This document shows positions 1 through 58,113 of a stretch of DNA of 64,000 bases, one piece after another (positions within the stretch are counted from its first letter, which is position 1; each line of letters opens with the position of its first letter). The DNA lies in NCBI GenBank assembly GCA_017475265.1, contig JAFVFY010000003.1, positions 1-64,000 on the forward strand, read 5' to 3'. Below the pieces are notes generated by a model, which made no database searches, had not been told where the DNA came from, and saw nothing but the letters and a program-made list of their open reading frames with translations. The position numbers and the translations under genes are program-made. Source of the stretch: Prevotella sp. Its GTDB lineage: Bacteria; Bacteroidota; Bacteroidia; Bacteroidales; Bacteroidaceae.

Positions 1-115
1 AATTACCATCGTAGAATCGGAATGACAACGAATCGCCGATGCTAATGCCTTTCATCTGAGCCTTGCTCCTTTCTTGAAGCGAAATGGGCTTTCCTGATAT
101 AATAACAGTCTTCAT
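1..115 (-). CDS. Partial CDS, N-terminal 38 residues of an unknown protein
   Basis: An open frame starts at an ATG at 115 and runs off the left edge of the window. The visible residues begin MKTVIISGKPISLQERSKAQ and show no motif I can name. A full Bacteroides-type promoter lies directly upstream at 157-188, which supports a real gene. It is transcribed away from the defence-like operon and is probably host chromosome. Confidence 0.6.
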   Translation of the reverse strand, partial: MKTVIISGKPISLQERSKAQMKGISIGDSLSFRFYDGN

Positions 116-513
116 ATTATAAATATTGCTTTATTTTAAGTGTCATTAAAACGATGCAAAAGTACTAAAATAATCTGATATGACCAAAGGTTTTCCCATT
201 TAATTTGCTTTGTGCATCAAAAATAGTATGTTTTATGTTTTGAATGACTTTATAATCGCAAATAACTGATAATCTTGGTTGAAATCTCATTGTTGGGTAT
301 TTATACAAGTTATTTATGCAGAATGTGAAAAGATATTGCCGTAGATTTCTTGGGATGTGATGCGACATTGTGTCTCAGGAGTATGCTTTTTGTTCCAAAA
401 GACGACTTGAATTGTTAAAAAAGCATTGAATAACCATATTTATTATTATAACATATCATAAAATATAGAAATTATTGTATTTTTGCACTCGTAAATATAA
501 GTTGAGTATTAAT
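116..513. other. Intergenic region between divergent genes
   Basis: This AT-rich stretch has no convincing gene. It holds the leftward promoter at 157-188 and a rightward -7 box TATTTTTG at 478-485, about 30 nt before the XRE start; a clear -33 TTTG for the latter is not visible. The 12-mer TTTTCCCATTTA (191-202) recurs at 6431-6442 beyond the operon. Confidence 0.6.
157..188 (-). promoter_or_regulatory. Bacteroides-type promoter for the gene at 1-115
   Basis: On the minus strand TTTG (188-185) is followed after exactly 20 nt by TACTTTTG (164-157). This matches the Bacteroides primary sigma consensus TTTG, 19-21 nt, TAnnTTTG. The expected start of transcription is near 150, about 35 nt before the ATG at 115. 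Confidence 0.75.
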
Positions 514-834
514 ATGAGCAAGACAACCATGGGCAATAAGTTGCCCCGAAAACTGGAACAGAAGATGCAGACAGTTGGCGAACAAATAAGGTTAGCAAGA
601 TTGCGTCGTGACCTTAGTGTAGCGCAGGTGGCTGAACGCGCAACCTGTTCACCCATGACTATAGCTAGAATTGAGAAAGGTGCTCCTACTGTTGCCATCG
701 GCATCTATCTCCGTGTTCTCTATGCATTGCAACTTGACGATGACATCTTGTTGCTGGCGCAGAAGGATGAGATGGGACGAGCCTTACAGGATCTTGCCCT
801 CAAACACCGTGAACGGGCATCAAAAAAGAAATAA
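514..834 (+). CDS. XRE-family HTH regulator (HipB/antitoxin-like)
   Basis: This 106-residue protein has a helix-turn-helix at about residues 20-75, with the signature QIRLARLRRDLSVAQVAERA followed by SPMTIARIEKG, typical of the HTH_XRE/HipB group. The C-terminus is lysine-rich. I chose the ATG at 514, not the upstream in-frame start at 475, because the -7 box TATTTTTG lies at 478-485 and transcription would begin after 475. It is 48 bp upstream of the nuclease-NTPase gene in the same direction. By inference it autoregulates this operon, as XRE proteins often do in defence and toxin modules. No HipA-like partner is present. Confidence 0.8.
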   Translation: MSKTTMGNKLPRKLEQKMQTVGEQIRLARLRRDLSVAQVAERATCSPMTIARIEKGAPTVAIGIYLRVLYALQLDDDILLLAQKDEMGRALQDLALKHRERASKKK

Positions 835-882
835 TGCTATATTTGTACGGATTTCAATTGGTTTGAACAAATAGCAAGACTA

Positions 883-3800: not shown

Positions 3801-5358
3801 GGTCCTTTCAAAAGATGAAAATGAAAAGCTGATACAAACACTATATGGGATACTTGATACACATCGGAAGCTCCTGAAGAAAACAAAGGGTGAAGAAAAA
3901 GAGTTGCTGGAGATTCAAGTGTCTCGTATGGATCGCAGGCGTTTGAAGGTAAGAAGTACAGAACGGGTAGAAGGCGGACTTGCTATACAATTTGAGACGA
4001 AACTTACTAAAGAATCTCGGAAAAGAAGTGAGGAATCGGATCAGTTGAATCAGGAAATGTATAGGTATTTAGGGCTTCTGAACTGGGCGATGGCCAAATT
4101 AAGAGGCGAGGCACTTGTCGGAAACAAGTACATAGATAATCCCGCATTAGTATTGAAAGATGCCCAAGAGATGCAGAAAGAACAGGAATCTGGCCGAAGA
4201 GGATTTATAACCGACGCATATACATTAGAGTGGGTAAGTGCAGGACTTGTTAAGTTTCACTCTGATCAATTAAGCAAAGAAGAATTAATGTGGTGTAAAA
4301 CGATAATAGATAAGAAGCTGTCAAATTTGTCTATTCCCATCAACACATTGGACGGAACCACGGCTTGCATTCAGGTTTTACCCCAGCTGATTGCATTGTT
4401 TCCAGAAGATAAAGATAAATATGCTGAGCTTCTTTTCAAGTGTTTAATGATGCCTGCTTATGGTGGAGCGGATGCGTGTGATTATGCTGTTGCTGCAATC
4501 CAATCATCTGATTTGTGGGTAAAAGATGCTGCATTGATAAAGGATATTTTAAAGAGATATATCAAAGATGAGTCATTGAATACGCTACACTCTTATCATT
4601 TGAAAGTCATATTTGGACTTATACCTCATTTACCGGACAAGGAAACAATAGATATTGCAGTAAAGTATCTGAAAGCCCTGCCAGAGCTTATCAAATCCCA
4701 TGAAAATGAAGTGCATGGAATGTTTGATGTGGTAATTTATCTGGTAAGATTATTTATGCACACAGAAAGTACAGAAATCCTACATTGTCTACCCTGTACA
4801 TTCCCGATTATAAAAGAGAGCCATTTAGGGCACTCATATCTGATTCGTTTTATTCTAGAAGAAGATTATTGTAAGAAACCTGACCGGTTCTGGTTGATTT
4901 GGAATACCTTCAGAGAACCAATAATGGAATCGGGGACATATTGTGATAGTCAGGAATTGAGAGCGTACACTCTAAATACAGAATGGAATGAAGACGTAAA
5001 AGAATGGCATTCTCTTCGAAAAAATGATATTGGGTTTTATATGTATTTAGCTGAGCATTCTGCGGGGAATGCTGTGGTGTTTGAAGGCTTAGTTAAAGTT
5101 TTGACAACCATAGCAAGTGGGTATAAGACTGAGGGTATGTCATGGATTGCAAAGGCAATTAATCAATGTCCTACGATGAATCTGAATGAAACGCTAGGTC
5201 TGATGTATCTTGAACTTGTTATGATGCCATATGTTTATACAAACAAGATGCAAATCAGGAAGAATCCAGAGTTATTGGCGCAGGTTAGGACAATTCTGAA
5301 TTTTATGGTGACAAAGAGTTCTGTTGTTGGCTATATGTTACGGGATATAGTAAATTAA
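883..5358 (+). CDS. Large PD-(D/E)xK nuclease / STAND-like P-loop NTPase, candidate defence protein
   Basis: A protein of 1491 residues. The N-terminal 100 residues have the Mrr-like nuclease pattern: E25 in helix FEDLARSLF, then D54 in GNETDV, then Q66-A-K68. A P-loop GDGGCGKT is at residues 222-229, followed by a Walker-B-like stretch YFIIDSAEHL near 285. The remaining 1000 residues are alpha-helical and rich in Leu, Trp and Tyr, without a recognisable catalytic motif, as in the sensor half of STAND proteins. Nuclease, STAND NTPase and helical repeat in this order is the architecture of Avs-type antiviral proteins, where the C-terminus senses phage protein and triggers the nuclease. I cannot assign it to a named Avs type. 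It is 11 bp from the downstream peptidase gene. Confidence 0.7.
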   Translation: MNNRIFPDWKSFEYKYRGREQDAFEDLARSLFRKEMGIRYGLFQRINHKGNETDVVEKEGKVCGFQAKFFNHRIDADNIICSMRDAKESHPEQTHYYIYCNLAFGNPHRRKGSKKSDPLPDQTLAEEKITKVANELGLTIVWKMDRAILDETNEESWINDVFFSVEGRLESLIKEERQHAGIAFNSINYACSFNNRSIHIDRTDILSQIENASPSTLYVIHGDGGCGKTAILHELFDKKQDTYPICYRKATSLNVKNLAAVFHLGDLYTFPDFKEAYKDCERKYFIIDSAEHLDEIEDGTILPSLVRGLMEAHWCIVFTVRNVFLSDLLNLLKYEFRQVQINKIDVGILPENQLRTIARINAIKLPTDRILFDRIRNLFYFDLYTQYYDEIEHQYSDRDFLKLVWDKKIRGKNNRIGYLRESLFESFIEDRIKANAFFLPATKYINEEFDTLISEEIIADDPGLGLFITHDIFEEWGLYRIIDKKWENKDSIQGFLTDIGDTRAVRRAFRLWLKDKVIVCPDSIQSLTQASFTSDIPGIWKDEVLCAILLSDKAQSFLSPYERQILDNTDGLAEKVIWSLRVGCLYITDVISYKDYYLPRYAPIGSGWVYIVNLLFQHQDEAKLSIWLPALNDWVKGNLRGETTRKIGLMVIAYYKSEAYQKEYYWDRNSKTVHEILNNTVWEIKEELSELLYSRKGHDERRNGLIEFVLKETFGAMNIHLAIPQTVADLCIYYWRERPDEEDRYRYRSRSMETGYGLDIYVDMLKYFPSGANQTPTTTLLAANETIAIDFIIRLMNECVKSYSESGYDILEKVEITNGEDRKNWQWHSFGLWCMYRGTGSPVAPYCLQSVHMALEQYLLKMSKSSKYVQCEAIMQKLLFECHSSSVSAVVGSVVLAYPNEYWRIALILFRTIEFIQIDSHRALRENEAKTLYQISGDLNPNVLKERLETCKQEFRKTHLENLCLNYQFIGTKVLSKDENEKLIQTLYGILDTHRKLLKKTKGEEKELLEIQVSRMDRRRLKVRSTERVEGGLAIQFETKLTKESRKRSEESDQLNQEMYRYLGLLNWAMAKLRGEALVGNKYIDNPALVLKDAQEMQKEQESGRRGFITDAYTLEWVSAGLVKFHSDQLSKEELMWCKTIIDKKLSNLSIPINTLDGTTACIQVLPQLIALFPEDKDKYAELLFKCLMMPAYGGADACDYAVAAIQSSDLWVKDAALIKDILKRYIKDESLNTLHSYHLKVIFGLIPHLPDKETIDIAVKYLKALPELIKSHENEVHGMFDVVIYLVRLFMHTESTEILHCLPCTFPIIKESHLGHSYLIRFILEEDYCKKPDRFWLIWNTFREPIMESGTYCDSQELRAYTLNTEWNEDVKEWHSLRKNDIGFYMYLAEHSAGNAVVFEGLVKVLTTIASGYKTEGMSWIAKAINQCPTMNLNETLGLMYLELVMMPYVYTNKMQIRKNPELLAQVRTILNFMVTKSSVVGYMLRDIVN

Positions 5359-5369
5359 AGAAGTAAGCC

Positions 5370-6374
5370 ATGTCTATTTCAATTCAAACATCATTATTTA
5401 ATTATAAGGATATCTTCCTGCCTGTACAGGCACTTCGTGATGTCAGCATAGAACATGTGTTGGGAATAGATGGTATCCGTGAGGCTGCAACTATTGAATG
5501 CGACACCAACGGACTTTCAAGAGGAATTGTGTTTTTTGAGGAAAGAAATGGTATTATGACGCCTGCTGAAATTTCGTTCGTAAATGGTGAGTATCAGATC
5601 TCAATATCTTTGACCTTTTGCCAGTTCGTATGGGCGGTGGGACTGTATATGACTGCCTATTTTGACAATATTATACAGATTCCTAACATGAATGCTGCAG
5701 GCACTAACATTCATGGTTATAAGGTTGATAAGAACCATGTCGAATATGCTAATGAACAATTTAGGCTTGCTCGGTCTTTAATGTGGGGATACAATCACGA
5801 CGTATTTTTTGAGTTGCCAAATATTTGTGATCCGATGGAGTATAGTGAACCGATTGGAAAGGCAAATGGTGTTCTTCTTGGTGGGGTGGCTTTTATGTTT
5901 TGTCATGAACTGTCGCACAATATACTTGGCCATACGCAAAAGGATTCCACAGATGACGAGTCTATAGCAGAAGAAGCTGCAGCGGACGACTATGCTTTAG
6001 ACATGCTTTCTGACACGTTTGATAGTAATTGGGGATTTAATCATAAAGTTGGTGCAGCCACAGTGTTATGCTCGCTACTTATGATGGGTGAGGATAGTAT
6101 CAGTGGAGGTTCTAGACATCCACACATGGATTATCGTATTCAAATGATGATGAAGAAGTTTAATCTTCATAAGATGGATAGTCTATGGGGATTTGTTGGA
6201 AGTGTAATACGTCTGTGGCTCTTGGTATATGGTGGTTTAACTATACAAGAGGATATGAAAACAGGGGGCTTCGATTTCTACCAAAATTTCTATGAACATT
6301 ATTTGGGACTATTGACGCAAGTGAGAGAATTACGTTATCCAAAGTTGGTTAAACCTATATGGTATGTGGAATAA
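5370..6374 (+). CDS. Zinc metallopeptidase of HExxH type, resembling Lit/peptidase U49
   Basis: A protein of 334 residues with HELSH at residues 179-183, followed by GH at 187-188 and an acidic EEAAADDYALD segment that can supply the third zinc ligand. HExxH...GH then E/AADxxA is the layout of gluzincin-like peptidases such as the phage-exclusion protease Lit (U49), which cleaves EF-Tu during infection. There is no signal peptide, so it should act in the cytoplasm. The gene follows the nuclease-NTPase gene by 11 bp and is the last of the operon. Possible roles are an effector activated by the NTPase, or a processing protease for it. The family call rests on the motif only. Confidence 0.65.
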   Translation: MSISIQTSLFNYKDIFLPVQALRDVSIEHVLGIDGIREAATIECDTNGLSRGIVFFEERNGIMTPAEISFVNGEYQISISLTFCQFVWAVGLYMTAYFDNIIQIPNMNAAGTNIHGYKVDKNHVEYANEQFRLARSLMWGYNHDVFFELPNICDPMEYSEPIGKANGVLLGGVAFMFCHELSHNILGHTQKDSTDDESIAEEAAADDYALDMLSDTFDSNWGFNHKVGAATVLCSLLMMGEDSISGGSRHPHMDYRIQMMMKKFNLHKMDSLWGFVGSVIRLWLLVYGGLTIQEDMKTGGFDFYQNFYEHYLGLLTQVRELRYPKLVKPIWYVE

Positions 6375-6585
6375 TGAACAAGTCTTTAACATTTAATGTC
6401 ATCAAAATGAGATTGCTCTAATGAATAACCTTTTCCCATTTATAATGTTTTATAACTACCATTATTCTGTTCGGAACTGAAGATAATTTGTATAAGTTAA
6501 TTGAAATAGGAACGTTTGTATTCAATCTCTAAAGATAACTTCGGTATAGTTGGCGTTTTTTTATGTTACGTAGAAATTCTTAAAA

Positions 6586-6619
6586 GATAAGATTGAGGAT
6601 TTTGTTCCCCAATCTTATC
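6586..6619. terminator. Inverted repeat between convergent genes, probable bidirectional terminator
   Basis: GATAAGATTG (6586-6595) pairs perfectly with CAATCTTATC (6610-6619), with GG/CC pairs possible inside. It lies between the stop of the peptidase gene (+) and the stop of the integrase gene (-). Flanking T-runs are weak, so the terminator role is an inference from position. The gap 6375-6660 holds no gene and is the natural place for the attachment site of the adjacent integrase. Confidence 0.55.
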
Positions 6620-6660
6620 CATAAATATACACAGGTGTGCTTTTGCTTTTTTATTATGTT

Positions 6661-7755
6661 CTACAATTTCAGAACAGTTTTACGTAATTGTTCATCGGAT
6701 AGCCGGGCATAAACTTGAGTACTTGAAACGGATTTATGTCCCATTAGCTTCGCAATCGTATAAATGTCAGTTCCTTTATTCAATAACAACATAGCAAAGG
6801 AATGTCTAAAGCAGTGAAAGGTAATGTGCTTTTTGATATTTGCCTTATCTATCATCAAAGGAATCTCTTTGTTCAACATATATTCTGTAAGACCAGGAAA
6901 AACACGGGGACCCTCTTTCCTGATTGAACGCAATAGTTTTGTTGCAGACGTAGACAACGGTAGGCTGATTGCTTTTTTCGTCTTGTGTATAGTAAGACTA
7001 ATGCTTGATTTGTTCTTGTACCGTAAATTGATGTCTTTCCATTCAAGATAGATTATATCAGCTCTTCTTAGTCCTGTATAAATAGACAAGAGTGCAGCTT
7101 GCTTAATCATTATATTTTCTGAATAATCAAGATTCTCCAATTGTTGTATTTCGTTTTCTTCAAGATATTCTTTCTTGTTGTCATGATTCCAATGTATTCT
7201 CTTAACATCAGCTGCTATGTTGTTTTGTAAAATTCCGTCCTTGTAGGCAAGTCCGACAACTGAAAGGAATGCGTTGAAATATGCAGCTGCAGTATTGTGT
7301 TTAAGTTTGCTATTCCTTTTACAGCCAGTCTCTTTAATCAGGAATTTTGAGTATTTTTCGCAGAAACTTACGGATAAATCTTTGAAACTGCATTTTTTGT
7401 TGCAAAATCTTTTGAAGTGTTTATAACTGCAGATGTACTTGATGCCATAGTATTCGCAGCAATTTCGGAAATAATCAAGAAAACTTCCGTTTAGTTGTCC
7501 TTTCAATATAAAGGAATAATCCTTTTTAACCATCCGCATATACCTGTCGCATCTAATAGCCTCCGCTATTTCATCAATCATGGCATTATGCTCTCTTTGG
7601 ATTTCGTTAGCAGGATTTACATATTTTTCCAGATTCAAGAACTCATACCTGACTTCTTCTCCCTTTGGATTGATGAAAACAGGATTGTATTCCAAAAACA
7701 CAGATAACATAGTTCCTTTGCATTTTTTCTTGGTTCGAATTGTTACCCTATTCAT
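6661..7755 (-). CDS. Tyrosine recombinase (site-specific integrase)
   Basis: A protein of 364 residues. The C-terminal catalytic domain shows the tyrosine recombinase signature: Arg in TGLRRADIIYLEW, His-x-x-Arg in HCFRHSFAMLLL, the GH box in LMGHKS, and the nucleophilic Tyr in STQVYAR. The central part is a SAM-like core-binding domain and the N-terminus an arm-binding region, as in Bacteroidetes integrases that use an Arm-DNA-bind domain. Length fits the family. The gene overlaps the upstream HTH gene by 8 bp, so the two are co-translated. It likely integrates the element to its right or the AT-rich island to its left. Its AT-rich composition is unlike the phage structural genes. Confidence 0.9.
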   Translation of the reverse strand: MNRVTIRTKKKCKGTMLSVFLEYNPVFINPKGEEVRYEFLNLEKYVNPANEIQREHNAMIDEIAEAIRCDRYMRMVKKDYSFILKGQLNGSFLDYFRNCCEYYGIKYICSYKHFKRFCNKKCSFKDLSVSFCEKYSKFLIKETGCKRNSKLKHNTAAAYFNAFLSVVGLAYKDGILQNNIAADVKRIHWNHDNKKEYLEENEIQQLENLDYSENIMIKQAALLSIYTGLRRADIIYLEWKDINLRYKNKSSISLTIHKTKKAISLPLSTSATKLLRSIRKEGPRVFPGLTEYMLNKEIPLMIDKANIKKHITFHCFRHSFAMLLLNKGTDIYTIAKLMGHKSVSSTQVYARLSDEQLRKTVLKL

Positions 7756-8341
7756 AATGTCCCTCCTTCCATCTGATTATGCCTTGTCTGCTGAATAATA
7801 TAACTCCGTTGACATGCTTTATGTGTACAATGTTCTGCGCAACAGCATTAAACAGATCCTTCTTTTTCATTTTGTAGCCCATTTCTACCTCATTGATGTT
7901 AAGCCATAGTTTGATAAAACATAATTCTTCTGTCCAGGCTTTCAAAACGTCATCTTTTGAATAGCGTTTGAGCCAGCCAACATGGTATGACTTGATATTA
8001 TATCTCTCCACGAAACTTAATAACCAGCTCCTTCCCATGCCTGTGTAATTCATTAAGCCATAGATGGAAAAAGAAGACTCTCCGATAGGTGATGAGGGAG
8101 TTTCTAGTAGATGTGAATACCAGTGGACAAAGTCTGTCCATTTGACCTTTCTACCATCGTTTTCAATTAATGATGGAATCACGCCGTTTTTAACTAAACG
8201 GTAAATGTAGCTTTTAGTGTACCCGGAAAGACAAACAATCTCACCAATTGTGAGATAGCCCTTGGATACAACATGCTGCCACTCTACATCCAAACTATCG
8301 TATGGATTGTAGTAATGTTTGAAATGCTTGTAATTACTCAT
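7748..8341 (-). CDS. Excisionase-like protein with tandem MerR-type helix-turn-helix segments
   Basis: A protein of 197 residues. YLTIGEIVCLSGYTKSYIYR with following LVKNGVIPS is the pattern of the HTH_17/excisionase fold, and a second similar unit (SIYGLMNYTGMGRSWLLSFV) follows in the middle. I prefer the ATG at 8341 over the in-frame GTG at 8356. The gene overlaps the integrase gene by 8 bp; the pairing suggests a directionality factor or a DNA-binding regulator of integration. A perfect inverted repeat at 8351-8368 lies just before the start and may be its own operator. Confidence 0.65.
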   Translation of the reverse strand: MSNYKHFKHYYNPYDSLDVEWQHVVSKGYLTIGEIVCLSGYTKSYIYRLVKNGVIPSLIENDGRKVKWTDFVHWYSHLLETPSSPIGESSFSIYGLMNYTGMGRSWLLSFVERYNIKSYHVGWLKRYSKDDVLKAWTEELCFIKLWLNINEVEMGYKMKKKDLFNAVAQNIVHIKHVNGVILFSRQGIIRWKEGHYE

Positions 8342-8350
8342 AATTATTGA

Positions 8351-8368
8351 TGTCACTTTTGTGTGACA
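8351..8368. promoter_or_regulatory. Inverted repeat, possible operator of the integrase operon
   Basis: TGTCAC and GTGACA, spaced by 6 bp, form a perfect 18-bp dyad 10 bp upstream of the preferred start of the excisionase-like gene. Its position fits an operator. No TAnnTTTG box is visible nearby on the minus strand. Confidence 0.45.
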
Positions 8369-8535
8369 GTAAATAAATATGGTCTACAAGTGGCAGAATG
8401 AGTATGAACTGGGTCAATAAAGTTTTAAGCAAACTGGAATATTATACGTTTGTTAACAGAAATCTACCATCTATTAACAATAATTGCGCACTTTTGTCGG
8501 CTATTGTTGGGCTTCAGAGACATAAATCGTACTTT

Positions 8536-34722: not shown

Positions 34723-34747
34723 GCCTTGAACAATAAAATGATGAGAG

Positions 34748-34825
34748 TTCCCGGAGCGGGACTCGAACCCGCGACTCTCGGTGTCGTATGATGCACCAGG
34801 TTCTGGCCAACTGAACTATCCGGGC
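34748..34825 (-). tRNA. tRNA-like gene with a 10-nt anticodon loop, identity undetermined
   Basis: A cloverleaf folds on the minus strand. Acceptor GCCCGGA/TCCGGGA pairs at 6 of 7 positions (G1-A72 mismatch); D stem GTTC/GAAC with loop AGTTGGCCA; anticodon stem TGGTG/CACCG; T arm GCGGG-TTCGAGT-CCCGC, all standard. The anticodon loop is CATCATACGA, 10 nt instead of 7, so the anticodon is ambiguous: after a U33-like T it could be CAT or ACG. No CCA is encoded (ACTC follows). It lies in the tail operon between tail tube and chaperone genes. It may be a functional odd tRNA, a tRNA mimic or a decayed copy. Confidence 0.75.
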
Positions 34826-46696: not shown

Positions 46697-48157
46697 CTAT
46701 ATTGCTAACATGGAGCCGACATACTCAGGCACCTCGAAGCTATCCTCTACGAAATAGTTGATGGCATAGCCAAGTATATCGACATATTCATCATGGGTCT
46801 TGGCAGGGAATCCGCAGACCTCGTCTATAAATTCCTCGTTCCAGTCGCCTTCAACCAGATACACGCGGCCACACTCAACCTTCGGGGCCACAGCATAGAG
46901 GCGCGTGTCCTTCGGATCAGTAGGCGACGGTGTGTAGGTGACATTGAGCGAACTCGACTCCTGCAGCTGCTGGCACACGCTCACACCGTTGGCTTTCGGC
47001 TCGATGCGCAGCGTGCTTTCTCCGTTGGCATCGTTAGCGGCCATGAAGTCCGGAAGATAGCGTATGAGGTCGGGAAACTCCTTGTAAACCTTCTGTGCGC
47101 AGGTGATGTAGATATTGTTCCGTATCTTGCAGGCCCCGATGATGCCGCTGGGGTCGTTGTCGTTCTTCTGCTTCTTGTTGTAGGCGGTATCGAGGAAGAA
47201 GTGAACAGGCTCACGGTAGTGCAGGGCGTGATAGTCTGCCAGGCTGATGTGCCTGAACCATTTCTCCTTGATGATGTTACCGCCCTCGGCTGTCGGGTTC
47301 TGTTCGTACTGCCCGGCATAGCCACGACTGCCGAGGTCTGTCTTGGCTTCATTCAGTACATGCCTCGGTAGTCTTACAGGATCGAGAAGGCCATCCACGT
47401 AGTTCTGCCTCAGTTCCACAGGGCTTACGTTGTCGGACAGCTCGGCAGGGAGGCAGATGTGACGGATATTCTCGCCCTTCTTCTTCAACAGGTAGCCAGT
47501 AACATCTTCCTCATGGAGTCGCTGCATGATGGTAACCACAGGCGTATTGGCCTTGTCAACCTTACGTGAGGAAAGCGTCTTGGTGTGCTCGTTGGCGGCA
47601 GTACGCATCTGCTCAGATTCGGCCTGTTTGGGGTTTACAGGGTCGTCATTGATGATAACGTGAGCATGGAAGCCAGTAATGGTGGCTCCCGTCGAAGTGG
47701 CGTAGCGGTAGCCAGTATCGGTGTTCTCATAGTTCTGCTTGCCGCTCTTGTCACGCCTTATCTTTATCTCGGGGAACAGCTTGCGGAACTTGTCGCTTTC
47801 TATGATGTCTTTCGACTTGGTGGCGTGGTCTATGGACAGGGCGCCGGAGTAGGAGTTGGTGATGATGCGGATGCTGGGGTCTTGCGTCCACAGCCAGACG
47901 GGCCACATCACCGTGACGATGGTACTCTTGGTGGTGCCAGGTGGAATGTTGATAATCAGGTCATACGGCTTTGGCTTTCGCTCCACGATAGACACGGAAA
48001 GCTTCTGGAGCTCACCACAAAGATACGGAATGTGCCAGTTGTACGCAGGTTCCTCTTTGATGATGACGTCCCAGAAGGTCTTGACGAAGAAGAAGAAGCT
48101 CTTCCTGCACTCGTCAGCTACCACGGCGATTGCCAACTCCGAATAGTCGATGTTCAT
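46697..48157 (-). CDS. terL: Terminase large subunit
   Basis: A protein of 486 residues. The ATPase centre has a Walker-A-like IINIPPGTTKSTIVTVMWPV at about 70-90 and a HVIINDDPVNPKQAES Walker B region near 170. The nuclease half contains HFFLDTAYNKKQKNDNDPSG (first Asp) and YVDILGYAINYFV near the end (last Asp), the usual RNase-H-like arrangement. It drives DNA into the capsid and cuts it. The gene follows the small subunit with a palindromic element between them. Confidence 0.9.
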   Translation of the reverse strand: MNIDYSELAIAVVADECRKSFFFFVKTFWDVIIKEEPAYNWHIPYLCGELQKLSVSIVERKPKPYDLIINIPPGTTKSTIVTVMWPVWLWTQDPSIRIITNSYSGALSIDHATKSKDIIESDKFRKLFPEIKIRRDKSGKQNYENTDTGYRYATSTGATITGFHAHVIINDDPVNPKQAESEQMRTAANEHTKTLSSRKVDKANTPVVTIMQRLHEEDVTGYLLKKKGENIRHICLPAELSDNVSPVELRQNYVDGLLDPVRLPRHVLNEAKTDLGSRGYAGQYEQNPTAEGGNIIKEKWFRHISLADYHALHYREPVHFFLDTAYNKKQKNDNDPSGIIGACKIRNNIYITCAQKVYKEFPDLIRYLPDFMAANDANGESTLRIEPKANGVSVCQQLQESSSLNVTYTPSPTDPKDTRLYAVAPKVECGRVYLVEGDWNEEFIDEVCGFPAKTHDEYVDILGYAINYFVEDSFEVPEYVGSMLAI

Positions 48158-48200: not shown

Positions 48201-48635
48201 TCACTCCTTCTTGTTAATGAGGTCGAGCCCGATGGAAAGCAGCACCTCGCGCTGCTCTTCCGTAAGCTGGTCTAAGTCGATTTTCTGTTTGGGTACCAGA
48301 GATTCGCCATCCTTTCCGACAAGTTCCCTGCGCTCTGTGTAGCCCCTATCCTTCATCTGGGTCTTAGCGTAGAAGATTAGCATGGTGGTGTCACCGTCCT
48401 TCATCTTCTTTAGGATAAGGGCCTCGCAGAAGTCCTTCTGCAGCTCCTTCACATCGTCCACTTTCTCCTTGAAGTCCGGGTCTTCGTTATACCAGCGGTA
48501 GAACGTCATGCGGGATATGCCAGCAGCCTTACAGGCAGAGGAAACGATGCCCGATGTCTTATTTAGCTCTTCGAGAATACGTTCCTTGTCTGTCAGCACC
48601 CTTTCCTGAATGGTCTTGTCATTGTTGTTTGCCAT
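48201..48635 (-). CDS. Terminase small subunit-like HTH protein
   Basis: A protein of 144 residues from the ATG at 48635. A DNA-binding helix-turn-helix is visible (GIVSSACKAAGISRMTFYRW with following YNEDPDFKEKV), as in phage small terminases of the phBC6A51/HTH type. The C-terminal half (YAKTQMKDRGYTERRELVGK) carries the usual connection to the large subunit. I chose 48635 since the next upstream gene ends at 48640. It recognises the packaging site. Confidence 0.85.
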   Translation of the reverse strand: MANNNDKTIQERVLTDKERILEELNKTSGIVSSACKAAGISRMTFYRWYNEDPDFKEKVDDVKELQKDFCEALILKKMKDGDTTMLIFYAKTQMKDRGYTERRELVGKDGESLVPKQKIDLDQLTEEQREVLLSIGLDLINKKE

Positions 48636-48639
48636 AGTC

Positions 48640-49704
48640 CTATTGTTGTAAGTCACGAATGAGGTCGCCAACGACTACTCGATAGGTGCGCTTCTTTGGA
48701 TCGCCAGCAATGAGAATCTGGTAAACCTTCTTGTAAGTGGCCTGTGAGTGTCGGTCGGTCAGCCGTGCGTAAAGCTTCTTGGCCACCTCATGCCCCGGAT
48801 AGTCCTTGGGATGCTCGGCGGCTTTCAGCATTTCCTCACGCAGCAGCTTCTTATAGTCCTTCTCATTACCAAATTGCCTGTTCTGCTGAGAGGAACGGAA
48901 CATTTCGGTGTCCCAGTATAGCATAACGAGGTCTGCATTCGGCTCACGCTTCAAGATACGCTCGTATAGGTTAGGGTAGAACTCCAACACTTTCGGCAGC
49001 GACTTGATGGTGTCGATGGAAAAGAACTGGCTGATGCGTAGTCTGTTCAAAGGTACACCTACCTTGTAGAGGTAGATGTAAGTCTCTGGTATCTGTAGGC
49101 CATATAGCTTGATGTATAGCCAGACGTCGTTATCCTTCCAGTCATAGAGAGGATAAACGAACTTGCTTTTCTTCATCGAGGCTATTGCCGTGCGCCGCTG
49201 GACGGACTCAGCCATACGGAGGCCAACCATCTGAGGGATGGACTGGAAAATCTTCTCTCCGAAGGTCTGGTAGTTCATCCCCATGCGGAAGTCCTTGTGG
49301 TTCCTGATGGCGAACTTCGGCATCTGGCGCACCCACACGCTTTCTTTGCCAGGCTCCCAGCAGATGAATGTTTCGTCGTTAGCGAGCTTGTTGCAGCAGT
49401 TGAAGTGCTTGATAGGCATACAGAACCAGTAGAACTTTGCACCAAGCGACATGAAGCGTGAACGCCAGTTCAACACAATCTGCTCGACATCGGGATAGAT
49501 GGCTTCCTCGTCAAAGAAGATGACCATGAGCCGTGAGAACTGGATGCCGTACTTCTGCATCGTCTTGATGACCATATCGGCCATGCAGATAGAATCCTTA
49601 CCGCCAGAGAAGGACATCGAGACGAACTGGTTCCTGTTGAAGGTTTCCAGTATGCGCCTCTCAGCCGCTTCCACTACATTGATTTCAAGCTCCTTTTCAA
49701 ACAT
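48640..49704 (-). CDS. IbrA-like PAPS reductase-family protein (DUF3440 type)
   Basis: A protein of 354 residues. The PP-loop SFSGGKDSICMADMVIK near residue 35 is the ATP-binding motif of the PAPS-reductase/adenine nucleotide alpha hydrolase superfamily; YPLYDWKDNDVWLYIKLYGL is characteristic of the IbrA group. No C-terminal ECGLH redox motif of true PAPS reductases is seen. In E. coli IbrA is paired with the ParB-like IbrB; here a ParB-like gene lies 3 bp upstream. Known IbrAB acts as a regulator of eib genes, while relatives are suspected in nucleic acid modification. The substrate here is unknown. Confidence 0.78.
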   Translation of the reverse strand: MFEKELEINVVEAAERRILETFNRNQFVSMSFSGGKDSICMADMVIKTMQKYGIQFSRLMVIFFDEEAIYPDVEQIVLNWRSRFMSLGAKFYWFCMPIKHFNCCNKLANDETFICWEPGKESVWVRQMPKFAIRNHKDFRMGMNYQTFGEKIFQSIPQMVGLRMAESVQRRTAIASMKKSKFVYPLYDWKDNDVWLYIKLYGLQIPETYIYLYKVGVPLNRLRISQFFSIDTIKSLPKVLEFYPNLYERILKREPNADLVMLYWDTEMFRSSQQNRQFGNEKDYKKLLREEMLKAAEHPKDYPGHEVAKKLYARLTDRHSQATYKKVYQILIAGDPKKRTYRVVVGDLIRDLQQ

Positions 49705-49707
49705 AGC

Positions 49708-50235
49708 CTAACCCTTTCTGATTATCACTGCCTTGCTGAAGGTCTGCTTGCGGTCTGTAATCATCTGTAGGAACGTCTGGCGGTCGAGCTTCGACAGACG
49801 GAAGATTTCTTCGTCGCTCATGCCAAGTTTCTTGCTGATGTCGGCGACTGATACGCCCTCCTTAATGAGCGACTTGACAATATTCTCCATCGGCTCCAGC
49901 AGATGGGTACCACGCGCACGGTTGAACGTGATGGTTCCTGCCATATCATCCTCACGGTTGGCATGAGCGACGATGACAACGGGAATCTTATTGCCAAGCA
50001 TGGTTTTCAACGGCTCCCTGCCTGACACAAGCCAGCGGTGGAAACCGTCAATGATGGTATAGTCGGGCCTGATCACGATGGGGAAGCAGAAGCCGTTGTT
50101 TAGAATACTCTCCATCAGCAGCTTCAAGTTCTTCTCCAGAACCTTGTTAGGGTTGTAGTCATTGGGCTTTACCAGGTCACGGTCTATAAACTGGAGATTT
50201 CGCAGGGGCGCGAACAGGTCTTTCGTCTGGCTCAT
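49708..50235 (-). CDS. IbrB-like ParB/Srx-domain protein
   Basis: A protein of 175 residues from the ATG at 50235. NGFCFPIVIRPDYTIIDGFHRWLVS is the ParB/sulfiredoxin-type core (x-G-x-H-R). A C-terminal HTH-like part (GVSVADISKKLGMSDEEIFR) follows. The start overlaps the preceding ParB-like stop (ATGA). With the DUF3440-type neighbour it forms the IbrA/IbrB pair. ParB/Srx domains can act as nucleotide-dependent nucleases or kinases; which activity applies here is open. Confidence 0.78.
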   Translation of the reverse strand: MSQTKDLFAPLRNLQFIDRDLVKPNDYNPNKVLEKNLKLLMESILNNGFCFPIVIRPDYTIIDGFHRWLVSGREPLKTMLGNKIPVVIVAHANREDDMAGTITFNRARGTHLLEPMENIVKSLIKEGVSVADISKKLGMSDEEIFRLSKLDRQTFLQMITDRKQTFSKAVIIRKG

Positions 50236-50804
50236 AGCGTAATCTCCTTTCCGCAGTGTGGGCATACGATGGTGTGAGCGGCCTGCATTCCTTCCTCGAT
50301 GTCATTACGCTCCTGTACGTCCTCTTGCTGCTTTTCCTCGTCGAATTTCTGCTTGGGTGCTGCTGGCTCCTGGAAGTCCACGCCCATATTGTCGGGCACA
50401 TTCTCCTTGATGATGGCTTCAAGGTATTCTGTGGTGAATCCTATTACCCTCGTGTCGCCAATCTCGCGGATGATTTCCTCAACCTTTGTAAAGTCGATAT
50501 AGGACATAGACTGAATCTTGTTGTCCTCGACTACGATTCTGAGCTTCTGTTTCTCGGACAGGCCACGCATGATGGTAACCTCGCCCTTCGTTTCACCCAG
50601 CAGCTCCAGGGCCAGCTTCTTGCCGTGACCGCAGAGGATCCTAAAATCTTCGTCAACGATGATGGGGTAGTACTGGCCGTATTCGTCCATACTCTCCGCA
50701 AGTGCCTTGACCTGTTCCTCGGGGTGAATATTAGGGTTTTTGTCGTATGGTACGAGCTTTGACAGCTCAACCACTTTCTTCTCTTGCTTGATGTTCGTTT
50801 TCAT
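50232..50804 (-). CDS. ParB/Srx-domain protein with C-terminal zinc finger
   Basis: A protein of 190 residues. The ParB-like N-terminal domain is clear: LVPYDKNPNIHPEEQVKALA, YYPIIVDEDFRILCGHGKKL (G-x-G-H core). The C-terminus ends AHTIVCPHCGKEITL, a half zinc-ribbon (CPHC). It overlaps the preceding PAPS-reductase-like gene and the following ParB-like gene by 4 bp each, so all are co-translated. Phage ParB proteins of this type are usually linked to DNA methylases or modification enzymes, not to partitioning. Confidence 0.8.
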   Translation of the reverse strand: MKTNIKQEKKVVELSKLVPYDKNPNIHPEEQVKALAESMDEYGQYYPIIVDEDFRILCGHGKKLALELLGETKGEVTIMRGLSEKQKLRIVVEDNKIQSMSYIDFTKVEEIIREIGDTRVIGFTTEYLEAIIKENVPDNMGVDFQEPAAPKQKFDEEKQQEDVQERNDIEEGMQAAHTIVCPHCGKEITL

Positions 50805-51583
50805 TGCTTTATTGATGTTAGGAATTGACGTGCTGAATTGATATATACCGACGCGGCCATCACAACGTGAGGGTCTATGTCGTAAACCTCCTGCCAGGAA
50901 TATTCACGCTCTGGCCAAAGCCCGGTGCCTTTCGTCCAGCCGTCCTTTGAGCCATAGAGCACCCAAGGCAGATTGTCGTGCATGAAGTAGTGGATGACTG
51001 CCATCACCTGCTCATGCGTCCAGTGTGCAATCGGGTTGTATCTGGTATGGCCGTCGCCAGTCGTGTAGATGTTGGTGCCCCTTCCTACAAAGTTGCCGTC
51101 CTGTGAACGTCTGCCGAGAATGAGGAACTTGATACCCGTTCTCTCGCAGTAGTCACGCTGCCCGGCATATTGCAGTTTATCCATCCAGCGGGAGTTCATC
51201 TTTGCCTCAGAGGGGAACAGCATTTCGGGATGATCCGCAAGCCAACGGAGTGACAGATCACCAAGATTGACGGTGGTCATGCCGACGGGATGGTACTGAT
51301 ACACCCATTGCAGGAAAGCGGGATATTCCAGGGCCTTCGATGTGCAGAACACACAACGATGGATGCCAGCCTGTTCACACACATATTGGAGTGCCAGCGA
51401 ATCTTTGCCACCACTCCAAGCATAGGCGACATAGCGGCCAGCCGTTTTCTGCTTGATGTCATTAACGGTTGAAGCAACCAGTGCCAGCGCTTCGTCACGC
51501 GACACCAGTTGCTCGATGTTCTGCCAGGCTTTGGCAAAGTCCTCGTTCCTTGCAACCTGTTTCCTCGGGATGGTTGACCTCAT
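50801..51583 (-). CDS. Second PAPS reductase-family protein
   Basis: A protein of 260 residues. The PP-loop AYAWSGGKDSLALQYVCEQA at about 55 is complete. Downstream segments FLILGRRSQDGNFVGRGTNI and YNPIAHWTHEQVMAVIHYFM (with the conserved P-I-x-x-W) follow the family pattern. It lacks the C-terminal ECGLH of assimilatory PAPS reductases. It may activate a nucleotide or move sulfur, as in DndC-like enzymes. It overlaps the next ParB-like gene by 4 bp and starts 1 bp after the transporter stop, so the pair ParB/PAPS occurs twice in one operon. Confidence 0.8.
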   Translation of the reverse strand: MRSTIPRKQVARNEDFAKAWQNIEQLVSRDEALALVASTVNDIKQKTAGRYVAYAWSGGKDSLALQYVCEQAGIHRCVFCTSKALEYPAFLQWVYQYHPVGMTTVNLGDLSLRWLADHPEMLFPSEAKMNSRWMDKLQYAGQRDYCERTGIKFLILGRRSQDGNFVGRGTNIYTTGDGHTRYNPIAHWTHEQVMAVIHYFMHDNLPWVLYGSKDGWTKGTGLWPEREYSWQEVYDIDPHVVMAASVYINSARQFLTSIKQ

Positions 51584-51584
51584 A

Positions 51585-53891
51585 TCATTCGAATTGCAAG
51601 GCTGTACTGAATGTGAATGCTTTGGTACCAGCGTCGTATTTGAACTGGAGCCAGTCGTAATCGGTAATCTTCAAGCGTAGGTTGGCAATCACTCCCGGCT
51701 TGTTGCGCATGGAGTAGCCAGCATTGACCACGAAACGCCCATGAGCGACACCACCGAGAACCTGCAGCCTGTCCGTATCTATGAACTTGTGGCCGTTGTA
51801 GGCATCATCCCACGTCGCATCAATCATGAAGCCCTTTGGCAGCTTGACGGTTGCAGACAGCGTATGACGGTAGATATTGGCCTTGGTGTCATAAATGGAG
51901 CGGGATAGGAACCACAGCCATTTGTTGTAGTTGACATTGAGCCACAACTGAGGCACAAAAATCTCTCCACCGATATTGTACTGAGCAACGGCTGTAGCGG
52001 ACAGCCAGTCGGTGAGATTTTCCTTATATCCGATAAAAGGCGATACAGAGGTGCTTCCATGGCCGTGCAGGTTGGCAGACACTGGAATCCATATTCTATA
52101 CCTCAAAGGCTGTGTAATGCCATCGTAAACCTGCGCAGAGAGGCCACAGGGTAGCATAAGGAGTATGACCACAGCCAATTTCTTCAGCAGCTTACGGGCA
52201 ATCGAATCTATCTTCTCACGGTTGCAGACGTGTTCCTCATGGATGGCCTCTGTAAGCTTTATCATGCCGCTTGTATTCTTACGCATGTGGTCTGAGATTG
52301 CTTCAAGGCTCTGTTTCAATCCCTGCATGGCCTCACTCTGAGCGTTTGCCAGTTCGCATGCGGCTTGCCTGAGTTCCTTGTGTAGCTCTATGATGGTCTC
52401 CATTTCCTTTGACGGTGCAACTGTCACCGTTATTGGTTTCCCCTCCTTCTCTCTCTCTTTGGAGAAGAGTGAGAGAACGCCAGACAAGCCGATTGTGAGC
52501 AGTGAACCAGTAACGATCATCGGCACGTTTCCATTGAGGTTGCCGTAAGCGAAGATGGGAAGCCCTACACAGATAGACAGCAAGATTCCCCAAAACAGCC
52601 CAGCTTCGGACATCTTAACACCCTTGATGGCCCATATAGAAGGGAGCATGACACTACTGCGCAAAGTACCATACAGAAGGAACAGATACACGATGGTCAT
52701 GCCTGGTATGTTGGCAATGATGATGGCAAAGATTGCTACTGCAATCATAGCCATCTTAGCCAGACGCCTTCCATCACCGAGGAAAAAGTGTAGTAATCGG
52801 TTGTCTAAAATACGGCCGCACCACTCCTTGCTTGCGAATATTCTGGAGCTGATGTCGTGGCCCGATACTGAGGACACCGCACACAGGATGCTATCGACGG
52901 TGCTCATGAGGCCGGAGAGAATCAGCAGCAGGAACGGGAACACGAACCACTTGGGCGCAAACGCGATTACAGACGCTACATTGGTGAGTTGAGTGTCAGA
53001 TATAGCTAAATGTGCCCCGGCAGCTATAAACCCAAGGAAAGACAAGGAAACGGGCACACAAGCGAAAATAAGTGCCGCGAACATCATGGACTTCTTCACT
53101 TCACCCTCTCTGATGGAGAAAACACGCTGCCAAAACATCTGGTCGCCAAAAGTGCCAGACAATAGGCCGATGGCTGTTGGTATTCCGAATGACAGCATGA
53201 CATTGATTCCGCTCTCGTCGGTGAGTGATCCGAAAGTTCCTGTCGCACCTGCGAGGCCATCAGCGAACGTGCCAGGCTCTGTGTTACTGAATATGATAGG
53301 CAAGCCGACGGCCAGCACTACCACAATCCACAACATCTGCCAGAAGTCCGTCATGATGGATGCCTTGATACCCTTGGCCACCGTATAGGCCAAAGGTATG
53401 AGGGCGAGGGCAAGCGTCGTACCGAAGAACGGGAGGCCACACAGCTTATGCAGGATGGTAGCACCTGCCAGCAGCTGGACGGCAAAGCTCAACGTCTGGA
53501 GTCCGAACGATTCCACAAGGTAGAGGTTGTGTGTACGGTTGGAATACTTCTCACGGATGAACGCTGAGAACGTCCACCCGTCAGGCTTAATCTTACGCAT
53601 CCAGCTTGCAAAGAAGCCGAACAGTACAAGTGTCAGCACGTTCGGTACAACGAACCAGAACACGCCCGGCAGTCCCTGAGTGTAGGCTTTCTCTGCTGCT
53701 ACGAACATCGAAGGCGCCCATACCCATGTAGCAGCTATGGAGAATGCGGCTATCCACCAAGGCATTTTCCTGTCTGCCACCAAATAGCTCTCTTTAGTTC
53801 CCTTTTCGCTGATGAACCTAACCAGGAGCATCAGCACGACGAAGTAGCCCGCAAGGAGCAAAACGCCGTCCATTTTAGTCAAAATTTCCAT
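51585..53891 (-). CDS. Sodium:solute symporter fused to an outer-membrane beta-barrel-like domain
   Basis: A protein of 768 residues. Residues 1 to about 480 form a sodium:solute symporter (SSS) with 12-13 membrane segments and the SSS-like SGLMSTVDSILCAVSSVSGHD. A soluble helical part follows (480-569). At 570-587 KKLAVVILLMLPCGLSAQ is a perfect signal peptide with an A-x-A-like cleavage site. The last 181 residues are alternating beta-strands ending in Phe-x-x-aromatic style (FTFSTALQFE), typical of an outer-membrane barrel. One reading is a polyprotein that is cut by signal peptidase. It is the first gene of the packaging operon, with its own late promoter. Transporter genes in phages are rare; the substrate is unknown. 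Confidence 0.8.
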   Translation of the reverse strand: MEILTKMDGVLLLAGYFVVLMLLVRFISEKGTKESYLVADRKMPWWIAAFSIAATWVWAPSMFVAAEKAYTQGLPGVFWFVVPNVLTLVLFGFFASWMRKIKPDGWTFSAFIREKYSNRTHNLYLVESFGLQTLSFAVQLLAGATILHKLCGLPFFGTTLALALIPLAYTVAKGIKASIMTDFWQMLWIVVVLAVGLPIIFSNTEPGTFADGLAGATGTFGSLTDESGINVMLSFGIPTAIGLLSGTFGDQMFWQRVFSIREGEVKKSMMFAALIFACVPVSLSFLGFIAAGAHLAISDTQLTNVASVIAFAPKWFVFPFLLLILSGLMSTVDSILCAVSSVSGHDISSRIFASKEWCGRILDNRLLHFFLGDGRRLAKMAMIAVAIFAIIIANIPGMTIVYLFLLYGTLRSSVMLPSIWAIKGVKMSEAGLFWGILLSICVGLPIFAYGNLNGNVPMIVTGSLLTIGLSGVLSLFSKEREKEGKPITVTVAPSKEMETIIELHKELRQAACELANAQSEAMQGLKQSLEAISDHMRKNTSGMIKLTEAIHEEHVCNREKIDSIARKLLKKLAVVILLMLPCGLSAQVYDGITQPLRYRIWIPVSANLHGHGSTSVSPFIGYKENLTDWLSATAVAQYNIGGEIFVPQLWLNVNYNKWLWFLSRSIYDTKANIYRHTLSATVKLPKGFMIDATWDDAYNGHKFIDTDRLQVLGGVAHGRFVVNAGYSMRNKPGVIANLRLKITDYDWLQFKYDAGTKAFTFSTALQFE

Positions 53892-53922: not shown

Positions 53923-53954
53923 CAAAATTAGTAATTTCCGTGCGTATTACGCAC
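53923..53954 (-). promoter_or_regulatory. Late promoter with perfect palindromic operator
   Basis: The minus-strand -7 box TAATTTTG is at 53930-53923, about 30 nt before the symporter ATG. Upstream of it lies GTGCGTA-T-TACGCAC (53940-53954), a perfect 15-bp palindrome, at the place of the missing -33 element. A degenerate copy is at the other late promoter (39694-39708). Confidence 0.7.
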
Positions 53955-57360: not shown

Positions 57361-58113
57361 TCATACCTCATACTTTCTTGGTGTCGGATATTGTTTCCAC
57401 TCTCTGCCGTCGAGCATACAGCCATTGTCTTTCTTGTTGCTCTTGTGGCCGTTCTCTCCGTAGGCTCCCCACTGCTTGAAGAAGAAAGGTACATTGGCCT
57501 TGACGCAACGGTCTCTGAGGTCACGGAAGCAGTCTGCGGGTGTGTGCCTTGCGCATGATCCGCTCTCGCCTCCAGTGATAACCCAATCAATGCCGTCAAG
57601 GTTGATGTTATCCAAATAGCCCATAAGAGGCTCACAGCTGAGGAAGCGGACGGGTGCTTTCTCTATCCATCTGAGCCAGTCGATGCGGTCATAGTAATTG
57701 AAGCTCTCACAGGTGACACCCAGCCATGCGTTCTGAGGAACACCTTCACTTGCACCACCCATGAAGTATTTCGCCATTCTCTCAGCCCTCTTTGTGAGTA
57801 TCTGGAAGGTGTGCTGTGGATTCTCGCGTATCACCTGCATCACCTGGTCGATGTAGTCACAGGGTACGTCACGGTGGAACAGGTCGCCCATGGAGCAGAC
57901 GAACACCATGCTTGGCTTCTTCCACTTGTAGGGGTCTTTCAGCACGTCGGGGTTCAATGTAGGCTTGAAGCCGTTCTCATAGCTCTTGATGTGGTTGCCC
58001 TGCAATCTGCGGGCCATCACTTCGGCATAGCAATGTTCACATGCCGAGCTTACCTTGGTGCAACCGTGCATTGGTTGCCAGACTTTATCAGTCCATTCAA
58101 TCTTTGTTGCCAT
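57361..58113 (-). CDS. DUF5131 family protein (phage Gp37/Gp68-like)
   Basis: A protein of 250 residues. The N-terminus TKIEWTDKVWQPMHGCTKVS with SACEHCYAEVMARRLQG is the signature of this family: a C-x3-C-x2-C-like cysteine set as in radical SAM enzymes. Further conserved parts are FVCSMGDLFHRDVPCDYIDQ and FQILTKRAERM, then VTCESFNYYDRIDWLR and WVITGGESGSCARHTPADCF. It is a probable radical-SAM-type enzyme on phages; its substrate is not known. All cysteines appear intact. Confidence 0.85.
   Translation of the reverse strand: MATKIEWTDKVWQPMHGCTKVSSACEHCYAEVMARRLQGNHIKSYENGFKPTLNPDVLKDPYKWKKPSMVFVCSMGDLFHRDVPCDYIDQVMQVIRENPQHTFQILTKRAERMAKYFMGGASEGVPQNAWLGVTCESFNYYDRIDWLRWIEKAPVRFLSCEPLMGYLDNINLDGIDWVITGGESGSCARHTPADCFRDLRDRCVKANVPFFFKQWGAYGENGHKSNKKDNGCMLDGREWKQYPTPRKYEV

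Follow-up and report, generated by a model that had tools for sequence, protein, structure and literature searches.

Why should a prophage place a transporter, two enzymes resembling 3'-phosphoadenosine 5'-phosphosulfate (PAPS) reductases and two ParB-like proteins immediately ahead of its packaging genes? The question is raised by a stretch of 64,000 nucleotides from Prevotella sp. (positions 1 to 64,000 of the forward strand of contig JAFVFY010000003.1, assembly GCA_017475265.1; hereafter the window), where a first-pass annotation had described such an operon. We find that the five genes are a widespread phage module, and that an importer is tied to one clade of its enzymes, not to PAPS/ParB pairs in general. 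Judging from linkage and motifs, the cassette looks built for import plus chemistry. Our preferred reading, a tentative one, is of an import-and-activate module, expressed late, whose two PP-loop enzymes would act with two ParB-fold proteins to attach a scavenged metabolite, likeliest to phage DNA before packaging.

Open reading frame (ORF) and junction analysis confirmed five cassette ORFs, all on the minus strand and tightly spaced, with the terminase genes directly downstream (Table 1), and ORF calls and domain searches bore out the order that had been described. The accompanying claim of 1-4 bp junctions held for three of them: a 1-bp gap between the symporter-barrel ORF and PAPS1, a 4-bp overlap of PAPS1 with ParB1, and a 3-bp gap between ParB2 and PAPS2. 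It fails for the other two unless later starts are used, as ParB1 and ParB2 overlap by 34 bp from the first ATG (4 bp if the second Met, near 50235, is the ParB2 start) and PAPS2 and TerS by 32 bp from a TTG (a gap of about 4 bp if an internal Met is the TerS start). Pfam and PHROG confirmed the families behind the statement that a PAPS-like gene adjoins a ParB-like gene twice. PAPS2 and ParB2 match PF01507 and PF02195 above the curated cut-offs; PAPS1 (PF01507, E=7e-4) and ParB1 (PF02195, E=7e-3) lie below them, yet each has a strong PHROG match, PAPS1 to a PAPS family and ParB1 to a ParB family.

Table 1. Features of the cassette and its surroundings, in window coordinates.
Feature	Position	Strand	Remarks
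Fused symporter-barrel ORF	51585-53891	-	768 aa
DUR3-like sodium:solute symporter domain	52422-53891	-	residues 1-490 of fused ORF; PF00474 E=3e-19
Signal-peptide-like segment and ~180-residue beta-rich domain, fused to symporter	51588-52190	-	separate ORFs in relatives
PAPS1, PP-loop enzyme with GRRxxDGNxxG motif	50801-51583	-	260 aa; phrog_424 E=1.6e-18
ParB1, ParB/sulfiredoxin fold, C-terminal CxxC	50232-50804	-	190 aa; phrog_620 E=4e-38
ParB2 (IbrB-like), ParB fold, DGxHR, helix-turn-helix (HTH)-like C-terminal part	49708-50265	-	185 aa; PF02195 E=7e-7
PAPS2 (IbrA-like), PP-loop enzyme with GxRxx[EQ]SxxR	48640-49704	-	354 aa; PF01507 E=5e-9, phrog_2302 E=2e-75
Terminase small subunit (TerS)	48201-48671	-	phrog_4044 E=4.5e-11
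Terminase large subunit (TerL)	46697-48157	-	PF17289 E=9e-8; phrog_38 E=3e-92
Promoter-like element: inverted repeat GTGCGTAATACGCAC, 9 bases, TAATTTTG	53923-53954	-	upstream of symporter start

Relatives were collected by IMG/VR scans seeded with PAPS1 and symporter alignments (80 loci kept each, of 128 and 181 relatives) and by a PAPS1-seeded scan of GTDB contigs (65 loci). Together with earlier loci these gave 229 loci in 139 distinct groups, a group being defined by shared 150-mers and not amounting to an independent lineage. The exact order SSF-PAPS1-ParB1-PAPS2-ParB2, where SSF stands for the sodium:solute symporter family, is the commonest and occurs in 61 of the 139 groups, those with host titles being mostly Clostridia; the loci of Anaerotruncus colihominis (L196) and Acetatifactor muris (L173) also show it. 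Bacteroidota have the form SSF-barrel-PAPS1-ParB1-ParB2-PAPS2-TerS-TerL. The check for co-occurrence that the first-pass annotation had proposed thus found strong linkage in other phages. As this table of orders was partly symporter-seeded and hence biased, PAPS2- and PAPS1-seeded counts are used for the claim concerning the importer.

Those counts consider the plus strand only, require the importer within 1500 bp of the enzymes, and score as 'edge' any group with less than 1200 bp upstream; under the 1500-bp rule L167 falls among those without importer, though a symporter lies about 850 bp before its barrel. The PAPS2-seeded scan, whose query alignment (A4) consists mostly of cassette members, covers the best 79 of 373 relatives, which we divided into a close and a distant clade at L325/L326, a gap in E-value from 7e-69 to 1e-35 that was our own choice. 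The 56 groups of the close clade comprise 32 with the symporter, 14 with a mini-symporter, five with an ATP-binding cassette (ABC) importer, one that has the enzymes and no importer (L321), and four at an edge, so that an importer stands beside the PAPS/ParB genes in 51 of the 52 whose upstream sequence is in view. The distant, IbrA-like clade has one in 0/8 (14 groups, eight without importer and six at an edge). This difference is the basis for tying the importer to the close enzyme clade. PAPS1-seeded scans, whose seed is likewise independent of the importer, gave an importer in 60 of 62 viral groups (80 loci kept; 56 symporter, 3 mini-symporter, 1 ABC, 2 none) and in 52 of 57 GTDB groups (40 symporter, 12 mini-symporter, 5 none). 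Seeding with the symporter (80 loci kept) found the enzymes adjoining it in 50 of 54 groups; the other four are L112, with PAPS1 about 4 kb off, and three deletion forms. Over all 340 loci, in 210 groups, 121 groups were scored as symporter, 28 as mini-symporter, 11 as ABC, 29 as none (including 13 host IbrA-class and 8 IbrA-like phage groups), 10 as edge and 11 as having no enzymes scored, the last being three deletion forms, three host symporter homologues and five minus-strand groups (four IbrA-class and the window).

The same counts bear on regulation of the IbrAB type, in which prophage genes, late ones or others, would be switched on by the ParB/PAPS proteins, with a co-activating ligand supplied or sensed by the importer. 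Relatives of PAPS2 and ParB2 are indeed annotated IbrA/IbrB, 'co-activator of prophage gene expression', and the cassette is located before the late genes. However, two distinct PP-loop enzymes with conserved active-site motifs exceed what a regulator needs, and the importer is missing both from the eight scored groups of the IbrA-like phage clade and from all 13 scored host IbrA-class loci (within about 1.5 kb). We consider such regulation very unlikely.

Given its near-constant co-occurrence with one of three importers, small-molecule uptake would be part of the module's function, and since three kinds of importer occupy one slot, the suggestion that a transporter serves the ParB/PAPS enzymes is better supported than before. 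In the window, assignment to the SSF follows from a PF00474 match above the curated cut-off together with conserved Ser/Thr and Asp positions: T55, W56, W58, D182, S330 and T331 are kept at 99-100% among 140 aligned sequences including the window's, and S330/T331 and the D182-type position are, as we take it, the Ser/Thr site of transmembrane helix (TM) 8 and the Asp site of TM5 in these symporters. The best PDB profile matches are to the DUR3 urea symporter (1.7e-34), a choline-transporter homologue (4.4e-27) and SGLT1 (1.5e-17). DUR3, itself of the SSF, is the nearest solved relative and has a W-x-W-A stretch in common with the domain, but it is distant, and its substrate is not transferable from this likeness.

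Loci lacking the full symporter, such as that of Faecalibacterium phage FP_Taranis, have at that position a shorter membrane protein, the mini-symporter, some 330 residues long. Profile comparison links it to the symporter as a distant relative (95.6%, E=1.3e-8) and so speaks against an unrelated transporter; direct scores between the two are weak, 5 of 12 passing the inclusion line. The third kind is exemplified by L254, from a genome of the host's family, where the slot is filled by an ABC permease together with a binding protein that is lipoprotein-like and of the NMT1/SsuA type. A viral scan seeded with the binding protein gave seven loci, all with ParB1-PAPS2-ParB2 downstream and three with PAPS1 too. 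In NCBIfam the binding protein is nearest SsuA (122 bits, below the cut-off of 163.5) and the permease nearest SaoP and then TauC, below their cut-offs; the PDB ranking of the binding protein is a putative exported protein, then SsuA, TauA and THI5. As no ORF with both Walker A and LSGG patterns occurs within the fetched DNA of the 8 ABC loci, an ATPase would be needed from elsewhere. Reading a substrate from the nearest solved structures was abandoned because DUR3, for the symporter, and the exported protein, SsuA, TauA and THI5, for the binding protein, disagree; we therefore claim none, and at a guess it would be urea/amine-like or sulfonate/taurine-like.

The enzymes were compared over distinct sequences above a score limit, a few of the PAPS2 sequences belonging to the IbrA-like clade. 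A PP-loop motif of the SGGKDS type is kept in 143/149 PAPS1 and 189/192 PAPS2 sequences. The second motifs are distinct: GRRxxDGNxxG in 128 of the 149 PAPS1 sequences, and GxRxx[EQ]SxxR in 190 of the 192 PAPS2 sequences and in none of the 149 of PAPS1. ECG[LIVM]H, which we take to be the C-terminal catalytic cysteine motif of CysH PAPS reductase, is present in 0/149 and 0/192, respectively. On these three grounds PAPS1 and PAPS2 look like two different enzymes, neither an ordinary PAPS reductase. Only one cysteine in each attains 90% conservation, C69 in PAPS1 and C95 in PAPS2. Adenylation is the usual way in which PP-loop enzymes activate a substrate.

In passages from two phage papers, PAPS genes of this kind are taken to be metabolic (PMC10434257, PMC11318856), in line with an account of the cassette as a sulfur-assimilation set that would import a sulfur compound, with reduction by PAPS reductases, to provide cysteine or methionine during infection. 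PHROG likewise gives families 424 and 2302 the name PAPS reductase and lists them under auxiliary metabolic genes, and the ABC binding protein has SsuA as its nearest NCBIfam model and second-ranked PDB match. The GxRxx[EQ]SxxR motif of PAPS2, moreover, presumably resembles a CysH substrate motif. Against this account stand the cysteine motif, missing from every sequence of both enzymes, and the second motif, missing from PAPS1; it also leaves the ParB genes and the terminase linkage without a role. We regard it as distinctly unlikely, and the absence of the cysteine motif means that 'sulfur auxiliary metabolic gene' is probably the wrong label for PAPS1 and PAPS2. The sulfur substrate suggested earlier is weakened by the same absence, yet one importer type is nearest to sulfonate transporters. 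A PF01507 profile search of the genome's own contigs returned nothing, though the window's PAPS2 matches PF01507 in Pfam; having missed PAPS2, the search is no evidence that the host is without CysH. The same caution on sensitivity applies to the detection of PAPS1 in 1/295 genomes of the class.

Of the ParB-fold partners, ParB1 retains its C-terminal CxxC in 179 of 183 sequences, in agreement with the zinc tail ascribed to it, and ParB2 has DGxHR in 221 of 222, a motif that we take to resemble the DGQHR in DndB's name. ParB2 also matches TIGR00180 from residue 23 to 156, through the HTH-like region (E=6e-7), and, weakly, SerK (E=4e-5), both below cut-off.

The position of the cassette points to late action, as the first-pass annotation had proposed. 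Of the 153 groups with enough sequence, 139 have a terminase gene no more than 3 kb downstream, and terminases are the commonest downstream neighbours. On the upstream side, the most frequent neighbour family (52 groups) has a strong match to an unknown PHROG family and weak ones to families of late regulators. Ahead of the symporter, 8 of 21 barrel-type groups have an inverted repeat shortly before TAnnTTTG, presumably the Bacteroidota promoter element, against 0.005 per set in mononucleotide shuffles and 0/104 of the other symporter groups; the pattern was picked after inspecting the sequences.

From these elements a sequence of steps may be proposed. The importer would take up a small polar metabolite, by way of a DUR3-like sodium symporter in the window, and in Bacteroidota a secreted barrel-like protein might let it across the outer membrane. 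PAPS1 and PAPS2 would activate the metabolite or its acceptor by adenylation, and ParB1, with its zinc-type tail, and ParB2, with its HTH-like part, could be their partners, binding nucleoside triphosphates and nucleic acid and so guiding or gating the reaction. Replicated phage DNA, right before terminase packaging, would be the likeliest acceptor, a choice suggested by the adjoining terminase. A bolder version, possible but in our view rather unlikely, is that phages, many of them from the gut, attach a nitrogen or sulfur metabolite which they import themselves to their DNA before packaging through an undescribed two-step PP-loop/ParB set. In that version the importer would be a symporter, a mini-symporter or an ABC pair borrowing the host's ATPase, with an outer-membrane pore in Bacteroidota, and we hold these particulars with equal reserve.

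The same import-and-activate module might act instead on RNA, protein or a free nucleotide, as in tRNA hypermodification or a nucleotide signal. Many PP-loop enzymes, among them TilS, TtcA and QueC, modify tRNA or nucleotides, and the PAPS2 profile matches FAD synthase, a tRNA thiolase, CysD, a TilS entry and Cap9 weakly in the PDB (E 8e-4 to 0.04). ParB-fold proteins include SerK, according to passages of a survey (PMC12704722), the protein that ParB2 weakly matches. Terminase adjacency, the late position and the HTH-like part of ParB2 favour DNA, however, and a target other than DNA seems to us unlikely.

Several observations weigh against an import-and-activate module that modifies phage DNA. 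Firstly, the importers point to different known substrates (urea for DUR3, sulfonates for SsuA/TauA), with no common substrate established. Secondly, phage vB_RanS_PJN03, whose PAPS2 is 66% identical to that of the window, has ParB1-ParB2-PAPS2-TerS-TerL with importer and PAPS1 absent from the 12.5 kb fetched, and PAPS1 is missing from 28/121 symporter, 9/28 mini-symporter and 8/11 ABC groups. Thirdly, natural deletions have taken the enzymes wholly or partly: the barrel runs into the PAPS2 C-terminus in the group of L099, the barrel ORF is joined to the second half of PAPS2 in L109, L103 has a short barrel and no enzymes, and in a Riemerella columbina prophage (L166/L013) ParB2 passes after its first 75 residues into the C-terminus of PAPS2, PAPS1 lying elsewhere. 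With an importer-less near relative and four natural deletions, the cassette is not indispensable. In addition, no terminase was recognised by the models used within 3 kb downstream in 14 of the 153 groups, the promoter-like pattern is missing in 13 of the 21 barrel-type groups, and IbrA/IbrB owe their names to gene activation, a role that does not require DNA to be modified.

The deletions also touch on the view that the cassette is cargo benefiting the lysogen or excluding superinfection, with the membrane protein active and its neighbours incidental. Prophage membrane proteins often act in exclusion, and three deletion groups retain the symporter with the enzymes lost. This sits badly with the linkage of enzymes in 50/54 symporter-seeded groups, with three importer kinds in one slot and with the location directly before terminase, and we think it highly improbable. 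Among related forms, L201 (Riemerella anatipestifer) has PAPS1 split over two ORFs and no other enzyme in sight. Separate deletions (the L099 group, L109 and L166/L013) end inside PAPS2 and leave its C-terminal end beside TerS, as if the 3' end of PAPS2 were needed for translating the terminase.

The symporter/beta-barrel fusion described for the window is a real ORF, but it is peculiar to the window and one relative contig (L001, 93% identical); elsewhere the barrel is a separate ORF with a signal-like N-terminus, by eye, and 16 such relatives were aligned. Pfam matches to barrel families are sub-threshold and each limited to 1/17 members, and a sequence profile search of the PDB gave no match. 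Among GTDB loci the barrel accompanies 5/5 Bacteroidota-labelled symporter loci vs 0/44 otherwise labelled, mostly Clostridia by title, the labels being hand-made lists from record titles in which unlisted loci, including the uninformative L172 and L202, count as 'other Bacillota'. The natural reading is possibly a secreted outer-membrane channel. A barrel in every two-membrane host was ruled out, as the mini-symporter occurs without one in three Negativicutes-labelled loci and in one from a Bacteroidota-labelled metagenome-assembled genome (L221). Mini-symporter and ABC cassettes in the Clostridia-like order (L221, L254, L255) occur in genomes that bear the label of the Bacteroidota host or group with it; these are either mis-binned phage contigs or real transfers.

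The window's cassette sits in an integrated prophage of about 63 kb, judged from phage-like ORFs that start near 9 kb of the window and, on the 108,660-base contig (genome, 4.75 Mb), from a tyrosine-integrase ORF at contig positions 71,271-72,473 (PF00589 match 71,331-71,798), beyond which the ORFs look chromosomal by eye. No base-synthesis gene was seen on inspection by eye of the early region. Positions 1-8400 of the window are AT-rich (35-39% GC) and may belong to another element adjoining the prophage; they contain an ORF of 1491 residues (883-5358) and, at 6691-7167, a second match to tyrosine integrase. A DUF5131 protein with a cysteine-rich N-terminus is encoded at 57361-58113 (E=1.5e-93), a look-alike family appearing, by eye, in 10 neighbourhoods. 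ARAGORN gave a single tRNA-like match at 34747-34825, with a four-base anticodon and no identity, which is possibly a false call.

If our preferred reading is right, the DNA chemistry of many phages would depend on an imported metabolite, and a gene group filed as sulfur auxiliary metabolic genes (cysH-like) would be misnamed. Because the importers are interchangeable, they provide a natural way of finding the substrate, with cassette prophages in culturable bacteria as test objects, and with ABC versions lacking their own ATPase phages would be exploiting a host transporter in a new manner.

Among known systems, IbrA/IbrB likewise sets a PP-loop PAPS-like protein beside a ParB-like one. E. 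coli IbrA has DUF3440 (PF11922); the window's PAPS2 has no match to it up to E=0.1, whereas the one host IbrA-class protein tested (L239) matches at 3.6e-87. The IbrA-like phage clade, devoid of importers in its scored groups, has a PAPS1-profile match in 1/15 loci (L331) among the best 79 of 373. In loci of this clade (L326, L328, L331, L334, L335) an ORF of about 220-270 residues often lies between ParB1 and PAPS2, before terminase-like genes; it has no predicted membrane helix, and two examples tested had no PHROG match. In genomes of the host's family a ParB2-like gene stands beside an IbrA-class PAPS-like gene in 17/17 fetched loci (L237-L253), and by eye 13 of the 17 have an unknown ORF, 130-148 residues long, immediately upstream; IbrA-class PAPS-like matches occur in 27/201 genomes of this family.

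CysH auxiliary metabolic genes have the PF01507 PP-loop family in common with the cassette, whose enzymes are without the catalytic cysteine motif in all sequences tested. An excerpt from one paper allows that the role of PAPS genes in phages may exceed sulfur (PMC11437467). The 2025 survey of ParB folds covers phages, and a term search of its main text gave no occurrence of PAPS, phosphoadenosine, IbrA or symporter (PMC12704722). Judged by titles and abstract openings, no published description of the cassette was found in the literature.

Two systems of DNA modification are also comparable. Dnd DNA phosphorothioation pairs the PP-loop protein DndC with the ParB-superfamily protein DndB, according to passages of one report (PMC10853773), and the cassette has this pairing in common with Dnd/Ssp, ParB2 carrying DGxHR. 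DndC, however, has three iron-sulfur cysteines, as against the single well-conserved cysteine of PAPS1 and of PAPS2, and a look through the 32 neighbour families that occur most often, which are annotated only in part and on which no Dnd models were run, revealed no DndA, DndD or DndE. In 7-deazaguanine modification, excerpts of one paper relate that some phages carry the preQ0 transporter YhhQ, which correlates with no phage group (PMC6884629), and passages of another that cellular Dpd systems include the ParB-like DpdB (PMC12839542). As far as these excerpts go, the phage DpdA/YhhQ system follows the logic proposed here, that of precursor uptake followed by installation in phage DNA, with other importer and enzyme families, and its uncorrelated YhhQ contrasts with the near-constant importer of the cassette. 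By analogy, DndC/DndB may serve as a precedent for the PP-loop/ParB pairing, and phage YhhQ for phage-borne uptake.

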